64,000 bases of DNA from Neobacillus drentensis. Lineage in GTDB: Bacteria; Bacillota; Bacilli; Bacillales; Cytobacillaceae. The stretch is taken from positions 5,566,001-5,630,000 of the forward strand of contig NZ_CP091110.1 in the NCBI RefSeq assembly GCF_021560175.1. Reading direction: 5' to 3'. The first letter of the stretch is position 1. The number at the start of each line of letters is the position of its first letter. Position numbers and translations under genes: made by a program. The notes under the pieces were generated by a model. That model was not told where the DNA came from and made no database searches. It saw only the letters and a program-made list of their open reading frames with translations. Positions 1,557 to 62,589 of this stretch are shown one piece after another.

Positions 1557-3647
1557 TCAGTAGGTATTACTATAAAAGCTTTGTTTCGTAAAATTCTCGA
1601 CCAACTCCATTGAAATTGGTTTACTAAAATAGTAACCTTGCATTTTATGACAGCCAATGCTGCATAAGTAATCGTATTGCTCAAGCTCCTCCACCCCTTC
1701 TGCCACCACATTCATCCCGAGGTTTTTCCCCATTGCCACCAAGGAGCGGCAAACCGATTTTTGGTTGGAATTATGGTTCAGGTCTTGGATAAAGGATTTA
1801 TCAATCTTGATCGTATTAAACGGGTATTGAACCAAGTAACTAATCGAAGAGTAGCCGATACCGAAATCATCTAAAATGATATCAACCCCAAATCCCTGTA
1901 ACTCTCTCATCGTCGTCAAGGTTTTCTCAACGTTCGTCATCGCGGTCCGTTCCGTAATTTCTATTTTTAAAAAGTCCGCGGGTAACTTGTACTGTTTTAA
2001 CGCACGCTTAATGGTTTCAATGAAATTATCTTGATGAATTTGCCGGGCTGGAACATTAATCGAAATATAAAATGGAGCTAAGCCTTGGTCCATCCAGCGG
2101 CGCCGTTGGCTGCAGGCAGTATATAACACCCAATTACTTAGTTTTATGATAAGGTCCGATTCCTCCGCAATTTGAATAAATTCCCCTGGAGGAATACTAC
2201 CTAATATCGGATGTTCCCAGCGCAGCAGTGCCTCCAGACCAATAATCTCATTCGTATTGACATCCATAATCGGCTGGTATTCCAAATACAACTCATGATG
2301 TTCGATTGCCTGGTGAAGATATTGCTCAATCAGCATTTTTCTAGAAAGACTTTTGGACATGCCCGTTTGATATTGCTGAATTCCTGTTTTATTTTCCTTT
2401 GCCAGATACAGGGCATGATCGGCCCGCATCATGAGCACGTCCGCTTCCTCGCCATGGTCAGGAAAAATACTTGTCCCAATACTGACACTAAGTCGATACT
2501 CATGGTCCAGGACTTTAATGGGCTGGGCCATGACGCAGCTGATTCGCGCAGCCATTTCATCTATTGCCTGGCTATTGGGCAGGTTTTTCAATAAAATCAC
2601 AAACTCGTCCCCGCCCTGACGTGAGAGGATATCGTCTGATCGTAAATTTTCTTTTAACCTTCCGGCCATCATTTGAATAAATTTATCCCCCATTTTGTGT
2701 CCCAAAGAATCATTGATGTCTTTAAAACGGTCCAAATCAATAAATAAAATGCCGACAAAATGATGCTTTTCAGTCGCCTCAATCAGGGCTTTTTGCAGCT
2801 CCAAATCCATTTTTCTGCGGTTCGGGAGCCCTGTTAGTGTATCGTGAAAAGCCATATACTCCAGCTCTTCTTCGGTCTTTTTTCGATGGTCGATATCCAC
2901 AACGACCCGGTCGTAGCGGATAAGGCTATTTGTAAGTTCATCATATACGGGTGTGATATAATCTAAAATCCACTTATAGTCCCCATACTCCGTACGGATC
3001 CTGTATTCTAGGTTGGCAGAGCGGCCACTTTCAATGGAACGCAGCTGTTGCATGACTTGATCTTTATCACTTGAATGAAGGATCTCCTCCCACAAGCAGG
3101 TATTTTCAGTAAATGCCTGCTTGGAATAACCTAAAATAGGCTGGCAAGCTGAGGAAATCGCCAATGTTTTCATCGTTCTAGCGTCAACTGACCATAAACA
3201 GATGTTCAGTTCATTAAGGATTTTTTCCCATTGGGGGTTGTTAGGTGCTGCCGAGATCCGTTCCATTTTTTCAGGTTGTTCGAACATAAAGCCTAAAACT
3301 CCTTGGATTCCCCCACCGATTTCGAGTGGAAGGGAAAGGATTTGGACAGGGATACTGTGACCATTTTGATGACGAATGGAAAGTTGCTGCTGCATTTGTT
3401 CTCCTGATAGAACACTTTTAAGATGGTGAATAGTTTGATCAATGTGTTCATCATCTAGTTGAGAGATGAAGTTCCGTTTAAACTCTGTTCCTCTTGGATA
3501 CCCGGTGAGTCGCATAGCAGCATCATTTGAAAGGACAATGGTGCCATCTAGGTCGAGAATGTAACAGGGAAATGGCAGGTTTACCAGAATGGACTTAAAG
3601 GATAGGATAAAAGTCTTTAAATCGGAGTGCTTGCCTTGATTTCTCAT
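1557..3647 (-). CDS. PAS-PAS-GGDEF-EAL cyclic-di-GMP synthase/phosphodiesterase
   Basis: A 696-residue signalling protein without membrane segments, so probably cytoplasmic. Two PAS-type sensor regions (about 20-120 and 140-255) precede a GGDEF domain with an intact GGDEF motif at 345-349 and an RSDD inhibitory site at 336-339, five residues upstream as in c-di-GMP-inhibited cyclases. The EAL domain begins with EALLRW at 472 and keeps the later metal and catalytic motifs (EITER, DDFGIGYSS, KIDKSF, AEGVE), so both diguanylate cyclase and phosphodiesterase activity are possible. The ATG at 3647 has AGGGAG six bases upstream. The ligand of the PAS regions is unknown. A second c-di-GMP enzyme lies at 58791-60632. 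Confidence 0.93.
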   Translation of the reverse strand: MRNQGKHSDLKTFILSFKSILVNLPFPCYILDLDGTIVLSNDAAMRLTGYPRGTEFKRNFISQLDDEHIDQTIHHLKSVLSGEQMQQQLSIRHQNGHSIPVQILSLPLEIGGGIQGVLGFMFEQPEKMERISAAPNNPQWEKILNELNICLWSVDARTMKTLAISSACQPILGYSKQAFTENTCLWEEILHSSDKDQVMQQLRSIESGRSANLEYRIRTEYGDYKWILDYITPVYDELTNSLIRYDRVVVDIDHRKKTEEELEYMAFHDTLTGLPNRRKMDLELQKALIEATEKHHFVGILFIDLDRFKDINDSLGHKMGDKFIQMMAGRLKENLRSDDILSRQGGDEFVILLKNLPNSQAIDEMAARISCVMAQPIKVLDHEYRLSVSIGTSIFPDHGEEADVLMMRADHALYLAKENKTGIQQYQTGMSKSLSRKMLIEQYLHQAIEHHELYLEYQPIMDVNTNEIIGLEALLRWEHPILGSIPPGEFIQIAEESDLIIKLSNWVLYTACSQRRRWMDQGLAPFYISINVPARQIHQDNFIETIKRALKQYKLPADFLKIEITERTAMTNVEKTLTTMRELQGFGVDIILDDFGIGYSSISYLVQYPFNTIKIDKSFIQDLNHNSNQKSVCRSLVAMGKNLGMNVVAEGVEELEQYDYLCSIGCHKMQGYYFSKPISMELVENFTKQSFYSNTY

Positions 3648-3793
3648 AGAGGGCTCCCTTCAGCGGAATGTGGAAATACATCTTTATCATAGCGGATGAT
3701 TTACGTTTTTACTGTTTGAAATGTCACTTCTGGGGCGTTTTTTTGACAAAAAATATGTTATGGGATAGAACCTGGTGTTGTTCAACTACGTCA

Positions 3794-4245
3794 TTTGTTT
3801 CTTAGGCGGACTCTATGGACAAAAGCAGGAGGTCTTTTGGGTAGTTTTTCCATTAGACGGATTCTATTGGACAGTATCCGGCGGTTTACTAGATAATTTG
3901 TCCATTAGACGGACTCTATTAGACAAAATCAGGCGGTCTGCTAGATTATTTGTCCAATAGACGGATTCTATTAGACAAAACCAGACCGTCTACTAGATAA
4001 TTTGTCCAATAGACGGATTCTATTAGACAAAACCAGACCGTCTACTAGATAATTTGTCCATTAGACGGATTCTATTGGACAAAACTAGGCGGTCTACTAG
4101 ATAATTTGTCCAATAGACGGACTCTATTGGACAAAACCAGACCATCTACTAGATAATTTGTCCATTAGACGGATTCTATTGGACAATTTCCTCCGGCCAA
4201 CCACATAATTTGTCCATTAGACCGACTCTATTGGACAAAAATCCT
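3794..4245. repeat. 52-bp tandem hairpin array, family A copy 1
   Basis: About nine units. The motif TTTGTCC (or a variant) recurs at 3794, 3845, 3897, 3949, 4001, 4053, 4105, 4157 and 4209, almost exactly 52 bp apart. The best units contain inverted arms TTTGTCCAATAGA and TCTATTGGACAAA around a 5-nt loop (CGGAC or CGGAT). A second pair of arms, AGACGG and CCGTCT, spans the hairpin and the linker. There are no unique spacers. The array fills the gap between the 5' end of the GGDEF-EAL gene and the 3' end of the DinB gene. The same family recurs at 57072-57770. Confidence 0.92.
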
Positions 4246-4344
4246 CAGGTGACTAGTCATACTGTCAAAGAGCCACTTTTTAATCGACTAAATATTCAAG
4301 TCCCCCTCGGAAACTGTCCATTCGCAATGCTTCAAGCCCCCACC

Positions 4345-4794
4345 TTAGCGGACAAACGAAATAAAATCCACATTTACCGGTTCGAATCCGTCTTCTCGCA
4401 GCAGCCGATTAATCTGGCCTCGATGGTACTGACCGTGAAGCGCTACATGCGTAAGGATATCCCCGACTGACGTCGAAAACGCCTGCCCAGTACTATTTTT
4501 ATACACGATTACATCTTCCATGGTTGTCTCTGACAAACCGCCAAGAAGTCCTGAAAAGCGTTGTTGATTTTTCATAACCAGGTTTGAACATTCCTCGATC
4601 GTAAGCTCTGTCCAAATTGCTTGAGGATTGCTGTCTAAGCCTTGAAGACGATTAAACCATACCTCTTCCGCAAGCAGGAGATGAGAAAATAATCGTTTAG
4701 TCTGATGGTTCCGACCTCCTATCGCTTTCAGCGCCTCAAGAATTCGAAGATTAGCCCATTCCAAATGCTGAAACATCTTCATAATGGTGTCCAT
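4345..4794 (-). CDS. DinB family protein
   Basis: A 149-residue protein of the DinB/YfiT four-helix-bundle family, whose members often bind a divalent metal through three histidines; some are bacillithiol- or mycothiol-dependent transferases, but most have no known substrate. The pattern fits: WANLRIL near the N-terminus, a histidine in LFSHLLLAEEVWFNRL, and the C-terminal HVALHGQYHRGQI with closely spaced histidines. The start is the ATG at 4794 behind a G-rich Shine-Dalgarno. The gene stands alone, facing the 52-bp array at its 3' end. The exact enzymatic role cannot be inferred. Confidence 0.88.
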   Translation of the reverse strand: MDTIMKMFQHLEWANLRILEALKAIGGRNHQTKRLFSHLLLAEEVWFNRLQGLDSNPQAIWTELTIEECSNLVMKNQQRFSGLLGGLSETTMEDVIVYKNSTGQAFSTSVGDILTHVALHGQYHRGQINRLLREDGFEPVNVDFISFVR

Positions 4795-5151
4795 GTTCCC
4801 GCCCCCTCCACTAATGCACCTTCCATTTTTATTACCATCAAAACCACCTCTCCTCTATCTTACAACATTGTTAAAATATGGGATAGCACTGCAATATTTT
4901 CTCTTTCTGCAATACCTAAGATTACTTTTTTAAATAAGTAATCTTAAAACGTAAAATCATCGCAAATTCGGCTAAGTTTGCTTAAATCTCCCTCCAAATT
5001 CTTCATTTAAACAGCAAAAACATCCCATTAGACCCTTATTACCCTTCAAATTGGAAATTGTGGAGTTCGCTGTAAATCTCCTTTCCCGTTATGGTAAAGC
5101 TACCTAGGAATTTGATTGGAACGCGCGCGGGTCCTCGAGAGGTTTTTAGTA
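4795..5151. other. Intergenic region with an 11-bp inverted repeat
   Basis: AT-rich region between the divergent DinB and sigma-factor genes. It holds an 11-bp inverted repeat, TAAGATTACTT (4917-4927) and AAGTAATCTTA (4936-4946), which could be an operator or a hairpin. I could not assign a confident promoter. Confidence 0.5.
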
Positions 5152-26019: not shown

Positions 26020-26135
26020 TATCAGCAGTTTTCATGGCGTTATCGGCGGTTTTCAAGCATTTATCGGCGGTTTTTGAATTTTATCAGCAGTTTTTACGAA
26101 TTTATCGGCGCTTTTCAACCATTTATCGGCGATTA
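26020..26135. repeat. 20-21-bp tandem array, family E copy 1
   Basis: Six degenerate units with core TATCRGCGGTTTT starting at 26020, 26041, 26062, 26082, 26103 and 26124. The spacing is 20-21 bp. It lies between the GntR regulator and the amidohydrolase. The same core recurs in inverted orientation at 48734-48825. Confidence 0.8.
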
Positions 26136-28860: not shown

Positions 28861-28997
28861 ATTATGACTTAAATATAACCGCTTTCATGCAGGGAGTCAA
28901 TAACTAATTTTTTTATTTAATCTAAAATTCATTTGTGGGGTTAGGGTGTTATCTGTTGTAGGGTACAAGTTGTTTTTCTGGAGGATTATGATTGCTT

Positions 28998-29410
28998 CTT
29001 ATCTGTCGAAAACCAATTTGGGGTTCTCCTACGGGGGTTATAAAACCTTCTTATCTGCCGAAAATCAATTTGGGGTTCTCCTTCAGGGGTTATGAACCCT
29101 TCTTATCTGTCGAAAGCCAATTTGGGGTTCTCCTTCAGGGGTTATGAACCCTTCTTATCTGTCGAAAATCAATTTGGGGTTCTCCTTCAGGGGTTATGAA
29201 CCCTTCTTATCTGTCGAAAACCAATCTGGGGTTCTCCTTCAGGGGTTATGAACCCTTCTTATCTGTCGAAAGCCAATTTGGGGTTCTCCTTCAGGGGTTA
29301 TGAACCCTTCTTATCTGTCGAAAACCAATCTGGGGTTCTCCTTCGGGGGTTATGAACACTTCTTATCTGTCAAAAACCAATTTGGGGTTCTCCTTCAGGG
29401 TTATAAACAA
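28998..29410. repeat. 52-bp tandem array, family B
   Basis: Eight units starting with CTTATCTG (one reads CTTATCTGCC) at 28998, 29050, 29102, 29154, 29206, 29258, 29310 and 29362, exactly 52 bp apart. Each holds inverted arms GGGTTC...GAACCC (the first unit is degenerate in the right arm). The sequence is unrelated to family A, but the period is the same. Units differ at few positions, which suggests recent expansion. It occupies the gap between frlB and the OsmC gene. Confidence 0.93.
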
Positions 29411-34304: not shown

Positions 34305-34606
34305 TCCATCAAACCTCCCTTTACAGATGATTCCATATATTTCTAATAAAATTATATCATGTATCGCCACCCGATATGGGTATTTCCTACTCTTTTATCC
34401 CCTTCAAAAACTGACATTTTATATTTATCTTTCAAAGAAATTCGATTCGACAAACTTCACTAAAACCCTTCACATTTCCCGGGTAATTAACAAGATGATC
34501 TAATTTATTCCAAAAACAGCCAGTTTCTAATATCCTAGGTTTTACACAAGATATTCAACACGTTAGAAATGGTTTCAGTTCCAATGATCAAAATATAACT
34601 TAAGAT

Positions 34607-34905
34607 TTGTGACCCCCACGGTAAATCGGAGACGGATATGGTCAAAATAACCTGAAATTGTGACCGCTACGGTAAATCGGATGCCGATATGGTCAAAATA
34701 ACTTGGAATTGTGACCCCCACGGTAAATCGGATGCCGATATGGTCAAAATAACTTAGAATTTGTGACCGCCACGGTAAATCGGTTGCCGATATGGTCAAA
34801 ATAACTTAGAATTGTGACCGCCACGGTAAATCGGTAGCCGATATGGTCAAATAACTTGGTATTGTGACCGCCACGGTAAATCGGTTGCCGATACGGTCAA
34901 AATAA
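34607..34905. repeat. 50-52-bp tandem array, family C
   Basis: Six units starting TTGTGACC at 34607, 34658, 34709, 34761, 34812 and 34862. Each carries CGGTAAATCGG, a GATATGGTCAAAATAA-type end and partial inverted arms (GTGACC with GGTCA). The rest of the 34305-35026 gap shows no gene. Confidence 0.9.
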
Positions 34906-46446: not shown

Positions 46447-46650
46447 TTTTGCCCATGTGGAGTGCGGTTTGGTTGGAATGGTCAAAATAATCTATTTTTG
46501 TGACCATGTGAGTGTTTTTCCGGGTGGAACGGGCACACTAATCTGTTTTTATGACCATGCGAGTGATTTTCTGGGCGGGACGGGCACAATAAATCCTTTT
46601 TGTTACCTTTTGGACGTATTTTGTATTTTCTGTGGGAACGGGCACAATAT
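46447..46650. repeat. About 51-bp tandem array, family D
   Basis: Four degenerate units starting TTTTTGTGACC or a variant at about 46447, 46495, 46546 and 46597 and ending GGGCACAATAA or GGTCAAAATAA. The last end motif is shared with family C at 34.6-34.9 kb. The arms TGTGACC and GGGCACA partly pair. The region 46286-46440 ahead of it holds no clear gene. Confidence 0.78.
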
Positions 46651-57071: not shown

Positions 57072-57770
57072 TTTGTCTATTAGAGGGACTTTATTGGACA
57101 GAAAGCGGCGGTCTACTTCTTTTTTTGTCCATTAGACGGGCTCTATTGGACAATACAAGGCGGGCGACTTCTTTTTTTGTCCTTTAGAGGGGCTCTATTA
57201 GACAAAACCGGCGCTCTACTTCTTTTTTTGTCCTTTAGAAGAACTCTATTGGACAAAACCGGCGCTCTACTTCTTTTTTTGTCCATTAGACGGGCTCTAT
57301 TGGACAAAAAACGGGGGGCGACTTCACTTTTTGTCCTTTAGACGAACTCTATTAGACAAAAAACGGGGGGCGACTTCACTTTTTGTCCTTTAGACGACCT
57401 CTATTAGACAAAATCGGCACTCTATTTCATTTTTTGTCCTTTAGACGGACTCTATTAGACAAAATCCAGTGGTCTACTTCTTTTTTTGTCCTTTAGACGG
57501 ACTCTATTGGACAAAACCGGTAGTCTACTTCTTTTTTTGTCCTTTAGACGGACTCTATTAGACAAAATCGGCACTCTATTTCATTTTTTGTCCTTTAGAC
57601 GGACTCTATTAGACAAATCCAGCGGTCTACTTCTTTTTTTGTCCTTTAGACGGACTCTATTAGACAAAACCGGCACTCTACTTCATTTTTTGTCCTTTAG
57701 ACGGACTCTATTAGACAATACAAGGCGGGCGACTTCATTTTTTGTCCTTTAGACGTACTCTATTAGACCT
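57072..57770. repeat. 51-52-bp tandem hairpin array, family A copy 2
   Basis: Fourteen units with TTTGTCC or TTTGTCT at 57072, 57124, 57176, 57227, 57278, 57330, 57382, 57433, 57485, 57536, 57587, 57638, 57689 and 57741. Consensus arms TTTGTCC(T/A)TTAGA and TCTATTAGACAAA flank CGGAC; linkers read CCGGCRCTCTACTTC or variants. The family is the same as at 3794-4245. The 57771-58023 remainder before the DUF5317 gene is AT-rich with no gene. Confidence 0.93.
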
Positions 57771-58023
57771 ACTCCTACCTTCTTAATCCCCCATCATCTC
57801 CTCCCTAAGGTTCGCCCTTCTAGTTTTTCGACAATTTCCGATAAAATACAGCATCTATAATTTAAAAAATCAACAATTTTGACATAAATTTTTCCAATTC
57901 CCGTATTGCATTCGACAATATTTTTTGGTTAGATAGATAGGGTATTGTAAGAATATTTTTCCTTCATGGAATTTTTGCGCTTTTATTACTAGCTTTATAT
58001 TCTAGCATAGGCAGGTTAAATGG

Positions 58024-62160: not shown

Positions 62161-62402
62161 AGCCCCTACTGATCCAATCAGTAGGGACGACTTTTATCGC
62201 GGTACCACCCTAGTTGCAGACGAAGTCTGCCTCTCGACTTTGTTAACGGTTCATTGACCGTCTTTCCCTTATAAAGGTCCTCTTTACTTCGAGAAAGATG
62301 CTCTGGGACTGAAGTTCATCCTTATCTTTGTACTGATTCGCACCTTCCATCAGCTCTCTAAAAACAGTGAGATAAGCACTACTAATATTCCCTTCATTGC
62401 TC
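62161..62402 (-). promoter_or_regulatory. T-box leader (tRNA-sensing riboswitch) of the permease gene
   Basis: On the minus strand the invariant T-box AGGGTGGTACCGCG lies at 62198-62211. A terminator hairpin (CCCTACTGAT with ATCAGTAGGG, 62164-62186) and a T tract follow it. Upstream are stem-I features: GAGAGCTGATGGAAGGTGCG, GATAAGG and GAACTTCAGTCC, the specifier region, with the codon CUU or UUC. The full antiterminator alternative is expected from the T-box bases. Confidence 0.93.
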
Positions 62403-62589
62403 AATTATGTAAATTTTAAAGAAGTAGTTCCAAATTTCAAGTATGTTCTGTATTATAGAATTTGAATTATTATTCTGTCAATACTTTTTCACAATACTAT
62501 TTTAAGAAAGATTTATATTAGCAACTCTTATAGCTTACTACTAAAAAAGGTGTTAAAATGAATCAAATTCAACAAGAAGGAGCACATGC

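Follow-up and report, generated by a model that had tools for sequence, protein, structure and literature searches.

Near the start of the window, a stretch of 64,000 nucleotides from Neobacillus drentensis (contig NZ_CP091110.1, positions 5,566,001 to 5,630,000), the gap between two genes encoded on the minus strand holds a tandem array that we call A1. The 3' end of a DinB-family gene is directed towards the array, which is flanked on the opposite side by the 5' end of a 696-aa ORF, judged by eye to code for a putative GGDEF/EAL-type protein. Each unit of A1 is a 31-bp dyad of the form TTTGTCYNNTAG-N7-CTANNRGACAAA, followed by a linker of 20-21 bp, and arrays built from this dyad are referred to here as family A. 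Further arrays, one of them also of family A, are found elsewhere in the window (Table 1).

Table 1. Genes and repeat arrays in the window (coordinates of the window)
Feature	Position	Strand	Remarks
696-aa ORF	1557..3647	-	
Array A1, nine units	3794..4240		spacing 51, then 52
Dyad unit 1	3794 (start)		degenerate
Dyad unit 2	3845..3875		12-7-12
Dyad unit 3	3897..3927		
Dyad unit 4	3949..3979		CCGTCT word in its linker
Dyad unit 5	4001..4031		second CCGTCT word in its linker
Dyad unit 6	4053..4083		
Dyad unit 7	4105..4135		sole perfect 13-bp inverted repeat among the nine
Dyad unit 8	4157..4187		
Dyad unit 9	4209..4239		this end of A1 conserved at the orthologous locus of G012
DinB-family gene	4345..4794	-	
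Period-52 array, family B	28995..29408		different sequence; 8 copies, intergenic
Array of period 51-52, family C	34595..34905		different sequence; 6 copies, intergenic
Further array, period 51	46475..46601		2.5 copies, intergenic
Array A2, family A	57072..57771		14 units, 51 or 52 bp apart

The preliminary description of this sequence had counted nine units at about 52 bp, and this was borne out both by a repeat search (eight register copies, every spacing equal to 52) and by TRF (3802-4240, period 52, 8.5 copies); eight of the nine units are strong, the first one being weak and set off by 51 bp. With up to three mismatches allowed, the dyad pattern matches 41 times in the window and not once in 100 shuffles, and the 41 matches correspond to A1 (3.8-4.2 kb) and A2 (57 kb), on both strands. 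A chance origin of A1 is excluded. Hairpins of 12-13 bp had also been attributed to every unit. Full pairing (13 of 13) is found in the unit at 4105 only, and the others fall one to five pairs short, with 8, 9, 11, 12, 12, 12, 13, 11 and 12 Watson-Crick pairs from the first unit to the last and fold energies of -4.6 to -15.8 kcal/mol. The loop had been given as CGGAC or CGGAT, which is correct for eight of the nine units, while the unit at 4209 has CCGAC. Pairing of AGACGG in the hairpin with CCGTCT in the linker had been suggested as an alternative fold; it is possible with two linkers and weaker than claimed, AGACGG being present in seven units and CCGTCT in two of nine linkers (Table 1), and CCGTCT is missing from most linkers shown for other arrays. 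We set this fold aside, given the small number of linkers that offer it.

At least 20 family-A arrays, some with just two or three units, are present in this 6.26-Mb genome, a lower bound obtained from 150 scored candidates, so that the true number may exceed 20. A search of 60 genomes, with stricter filters and 121 candidates per genome (a zero in this search does not amount to absence), recovered the family in at least 14: this one, 10 others among the 36 of the same genus, and three from beyond the genus (G040, G054 and G056). Exact matches to a two-unit pattern were obtained from Litchfieldia salsa, Paucisalibacillus globulus and Bacillus sp. ISL-18. Viral contigs contained no copy of the same pattern, blastn of A1 against plasmid and phage collections gave no match, and on these results a phage or plasmid origin was rejected.

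Spacing was measured on 355 units from 59 sources in 12 genomes, chosen by half-site score. Neighbours less than 60 bp apart (n = 274) are separated by 52 bp in 186 cases, by 51 in 87 and by 50 in one; hence 273 of 274 distances are 51 or 52 bp, and this spacing holds while loop and linker vary from array to array. Longer distances comprise fourteen of 102-105 bp, four of 114-115 bp in L073 and one of 183 bp in L065, where the sequence contains N, and several long gaps contain units with an 8-bp centre. L073 (4497-4987, genome G056) is a family-A array with a period of 114-115 rather than 51-52. Centre length in 362 units is 7 bp in 337, 8 in 21, 6 in 3 and 9 in 1. Within the 48 arrays of at least three units, differences between units amount to 37.3% in the linker, 29.8% in the loop, 21.0% at positions 1-2, 16.8% at positions 7-9 and 2.9% in the core half-site, whose conservation is somewhat overstated because the units were picked by half-site score. 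The core is less variable than the linker in 48 of 48 arrays and less than the loop in 45 of 48, and within the dyad the centre varies most.

Core sites of tyrosine recombinases have inverted arms of about 10-13 bp and a centre of 6-8 bp, and the 12-7-12 geometry lies within these ranges. If the units were core crossover sites, with the arrays both produced and remodelled by site-specific recombination, this would fit the variable centre, the conserved arm core and the changed unit number at an orthologous locus described below. However, the linkers are unlike exchanged cassettes, and the model has no need of a fixed linker of 20-21 bp; we consider it very improbable.

Tandem repeats with a constant length of 52 nt have been described in Bacillus (Subirana & Messeguer 2021, PMC8161180), the class being delimited by a length of 51-53 nt and a minimum of four repeats, of which 60% or more have the same length (+/-1). 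According to the main text and tables of that paper, 176 genomes yielded 1886 arrays with a length of 51-53 nt and 781 with a length of 20-21 nt. About 30% of the Bacillus species examined there have 52-nt repeats, whose sequences are species-specific, and none is listed for B. subtilis 168. The text offers no firm explanation of the constant length, and its authors propose a nucleoid protein or a small RNA. A1 has the length and repeat number of these arrays and belongs to this class. With the published repeats it shares the period of 51-53, the non-coding location and the number of repeats (mostly 4-10). Further shared features are the presence in one genome of several families that agree in length and differ in sequence (A, B and C in the window, others in the genome sample), short conserved words, often with their reverse, inside each repeat, and patchiness between species; G011, a relative in which the search gave no family-A match, bears other 52-bp arrays. 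TRF applied to a 400-kb sample of this genome, made of evenly spaced pieces, gave a period of 51-52 in 8 of 26 arrays, and a 400-kb sample of G011 gave 8 of 31; another 8 arrays in this genome and 12 in G011, unfiltered for coding status, have periods of 20-22 or 41-43. The family 30_53_11 of B. thermoamylovorans (PMC8161180) carries TGTCCAATAG, which is the half-site of family A, on one side and an ACGAG variant, also found in G056, on the other. The fixed dyad geometry, the covariation test and the gene-context bias reported here are absent from the main text of PMC8161180. A period-21 array of 5.4 copies at 26020-26131 of the window matches the second class of Subirana & Messeguer, and period-21 arrays are also present in the samples of this genome and G011.

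Dyad geometry was compared in the 29 consensuses that are exactly 52 nt long, of which 18 come from the 27 in Table 1 of PMC8161180 and 11 from the 17 sampled here; nine of the published consensuses (50, 51, 53 or 54 nt) and six of the sampled ones (50-51 nt) were left out. All 29 have their best dyad axis on a base; they are not independent, several containing TGTCC and some being related to each other (horikoshii 22 and sp. m3-13 20, thermoamylovorans 4 and 5, L088 and L091). The axis has p <= 0.05 in 21 of them, the eight above this value being cellulosilyticus 37 and 61, horikoshii 22, alcalophilus 9, L103, family B, L118 and L120b. In shuffled sequences the two kinds of axis, on a base and between bases, are equally frequent whatever the score. 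An extra family, L076/L079 (like coagulans 8), has its axis on a base as well, two further entries examined with it being members of families that the 29 already include, and a looser run on 44 consensuses gave six between-base axes, all in consensuses of 50, 51, 53 or 54 nt. The mean profile of the 21 significant cases is 0.05 and 0.19 at offsets 1-2 from the axis, 0.71-0.95 at offsets 4-13, 0.33-0.57 at offsets 14-17 and low further out. Shuffles picked for high scores show a similar, flatter hump, so axis parity is stronger evidence than the profile. As far as we have searched, it is new that 52-nt families of different letters have one common dyad geometry, and no account of it was found in the open-licence literature, including the main text and tables of PMC8161180.

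These data bear on one view of such arrays, a neutral satellite in which a functionless chance sequence is multiplied through slippage and unequal crossover. Orthologous arrays do differ in unit number (nine against about four), family A is missing from many of the relatives searched, and sequences are species-specific in the main text of PMC8161180. Against these points, all 48 arrays combine a nearly fixed core half-site with a drifting linker, one period extends over families of different sequence in several genera (present data; PMC8161180, main text and tables), and the dyad axis is on a base in every length-52 consensus. We regard a purely neutral origin as highly unlikely.

The preliminary description had doubted strict RNA selection, seeing in the arms single mismatches and no compensatory changes, and we reached the same view. 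Among 59 distinct units, five of five covariation measures lie under the shuffled mean. The family-A dyad is 86.2% paired, compared with 33-48% in slid versions. In 149 units, arm-arm matches are fewer than under independence at position 1 (90 vs 97.0), position 7 (73 vs 79.2), position 8 (62 vs 77.1) and position 9 (92 vs 100.2), slightly more at positions 2 (109 vs 104.9) and 6 (134 vs 132.9), and about as expected at the rest. Counted per array as distinct pairs, changes in both arms are below independence at positions 8 (4 vs 7.2 expected) and 9 (2 vs 4.7) and close to it at position 7 (13 vs 12.8), all of them small numbers. One-sided changes are frequent in family A, and compensatory stem changes, as expected of a structured RNA, were not found. 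With fewer paired changes than expected and frequent one-sided ones, the arms look like two half-sites that are read separately and not like a stem. On covariation, we rejected the RNA hairpin as the selected unit in our main reading.

An RNA element would consist of hairpins of 10-13 bp in a transcript that continues from the 3' end of a gene, with a role as mRNA-end stabiliser, small RNA or titrator of an RNA-binding protein. All nine A1 units fold, complementarity is kept in families with different arm letters, and the arrays are located past gene ends; in addition, the 52-nt repeats of B. coagulans are reported to be transcribed in an RNA-seq analysis (PMC8161180, main text; PMC8625621). 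The covariation measures and the scarcity, at positions 8 and 9, of changes in both arms speak against such an element, as do the lack of an Rfam match at A1 at gathering score and the spacing of 51-52 bp, which hairpin folding alone does not demand. We judge it unlikely. An array of intrinsic terminators was also discarded, since the region 3600-4900 contains one terminator-like site where 0.9 would be expected and the units do not each have a T tract.

Another class of tandem extragenic palindromes, likewise outside genes, are the REP/BIME elements. A Y1 (RAYT) transposase would act on the imperfect hairpin, recognised in its single-stranded DNA form, and spread the units, which would agree with the mismatches in mid-stem, the sub-families common to several loci and the syntenic gap that holds no array in relatives, and Y1_Tnp matches are present in 53 of the 60 genomes. 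REP elements flank the RAYT gene; however, 20 Y1_Tnp loci (6.5 kb each) have no family-A unit or 52-bp array, and Y1_Tnp does not track family A among the 60 genomes, G020 having family-A matches and no Y1_Tnp match. The period of family A is also a strict 51-52 bp. The REP/RAYT tags GTAG and CGTC (named in the title of PMC3733652), which mark one end of the palindrome, are both missing from the 59-unit consensus. A link to a REP-type Y1 transposase is not supported by the loci and the genome comparison, and we regard this origin as improbable. A hairpin-rich array unlike family A, with a period of 35/77, adjoins a Y1_Tnp gene in G054 (L147, 3515-3919), as a RAYT-type pair would.

Two other systems resemble A1. 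CRISPR arrays also have palindromic repeats at regular spacing, but the linkers of A1 are related copies of one another and not unique spacers, so it is the entire 52-bp unit that repeats. Plasmid centromeres such as sopC of F are formed by tandem units, each an inverted repeat for a dimeric protein, and A1 has the same layout. Unlike them, its family is chromosomal, with 20 arrays found at separate loci, and has another period, and A1 gave no match in the plasmid and phage collections.

Placement relative to genes was examined in 62 clusters, of which 20 are in convergent gaps, 36 in tandem gaps, 4 in divergent gaps and 2 are untyped (one with a short doubtful ORF). The background of this genome (n = 224 gaps) consists of 35 convergent, 151 tandem and 38 divergent gaps. 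When gaps are counted, p = 0.0005 for the convergent excess and 0.018 for the divergent deficit; when bases are counted, p = 0.002 for each. These values are optimistic because the clusters span 12 genomes and include orthologues, while the background comes from one genome and the gene calls are plain ORF picks. Tandem clusters are closer to the 3' end of the upstream gene in 27 of 36 cases (p = 0.002). This 3'-end bias could also mean only that arrays are excluded from promoters. A random distribution between strains had been named beforehand as a result that would speak against the hairpins; occurrence is indeed patchy (at least 14 of 60 genomes), but placement is non-random, with convergent gaps and gene 3' ends preferred. 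Sub-family orientation relative to transcription in tandem clusters is the same in 7 pairs and opposite in 2, orthologues among them.

Two of the four arrays typed as divergent sit downstream of rRNA/tRNA operons. The six proteins scanned beside these four arrays (GerA, MFS, a sigma-70-type factor, a TMEM164-family protein, TsaE and arginase) have no common theme, and autoregulation by a neighbour was discarded. Arrays immediately 3' of rRNA-tRNA operons were seen in L026 (3877-3959) and L034 (4383-5028).

The locus of A1 itself differs between genomes. Among 20 DinB-relative loci examined, the 696-aa ORF or a relative adjoins in 5, this genome included. The syntenic gap has no array in G009 and G003, one short piece with half-site-like words in G034, and about four units in the close relative G012, compared with nine here, the end unit on the DinB side being conserved. 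In G003, where the gap is empty, a 52-bp array of different sequence is found beyond the DinB-family gene (L156, 432-620). Along the chromosome, 13 of the 20 family-A arrays found in this genome lie within 1 Mb of coordinate 0 (dnaA at 1.7 kb), with p = 0.0025 for a cut-off chosen afterwards and a KS p of 0.006. The G011 sample lacks this proximity, its 8 arrays of period 51/52 being at 2.2-4.5 Mb on a contig of 5.2 Mb whose dnaA is at 35 kb, and we therefore dropped it as an argument.

A geometry shared across families and the preservation of half-sites instead of stems point to a DNA-binding factor. Our preferred reading, to which we assign a probability of roughly 0.5, is that A1 is a ladder of half-sites for a putative DNA-binding protein with an architectural function, rather than an array of RNA hairpins. 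The TTTGTCYNNTAG half-sites would be paired inversely around the 7-bp centre, with a pair every 51-52 bp, that is, about every five helical turns; a dimeric sequence-specific protein would then sit on each dyad, always on the same face of the helix, and could bind cooperatively along the array. Presence or absence at one locus and differing unit number are observed directly; arrays would spread between loci by copying, and would gain or lose whole units. The output would be architectural (an anchor for the nucleoid, an insulator or a topological barrier where genes end) and not an RNA-encoded product. The strict period, the dyad geometry, the half-sites conserved over loop and linker, the lack of covariation and the 3'-end bias are the observations that this reading brings together. 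No binding protein or co-occurring gene was found among the neighbours of the four divergent arrays, three neighbours in the window and Y1_Tnp.

Several observations count against the protein ladder. The palindrome is kept despite differing inner letters, which is not simply explained by a single protein, and palindromes with family-specific inner letters favour hairpin models. The same applies to the high pairing of the dyad and the slight excess of arm matches at positions 2 and 6. Irregular cases are the period of L073, the 183-bp gap in L065 and the 8-bp centre in 21 of 362 units, and the reported transcription of the B. coagulans repeats (PMC8161180, main text) is another point on this side.

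A broader proposal, which we put forward tentatively and consider possible rather than probable, is that the species-specific 52-nt satellites of Bacillaceae form a single system, alike in dyad geometry despite their different letters. A fast-evolving family of DNA-binding proteins would polymerise on them and so create, across the chromosome, sites of anchoring or insulation where genes end. The arms would lie mostly at offsets 4-13 from an on-base axis, with half-sites alternately some two and three helical turns apart, and the 21-bp satellites would be the two-turn version. If this were true, the system would be a bacterial counterpart of satellite-based chromosome architecture; should such a factor exist, bacteria would own a satellite-based chromosome element. 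The geometry and the kept half-sites already indicate which probe to build and which mutations to try.

Two further features of the window may be mentioned. Rfam at gathering score gave nothing at A1 and a sole match elsewhere in the window, a T-box leader on the minus strand at 62180-62406. On the plus strand of A1 (3868-4209), right arm and linker together make up six promoter-like sites, with TGGACA or TAGACA, 18 nt, and GATAAT or CATAAT; the region 3600-4900 contains 13 promoter-like sites, compared with 3.3 expected.
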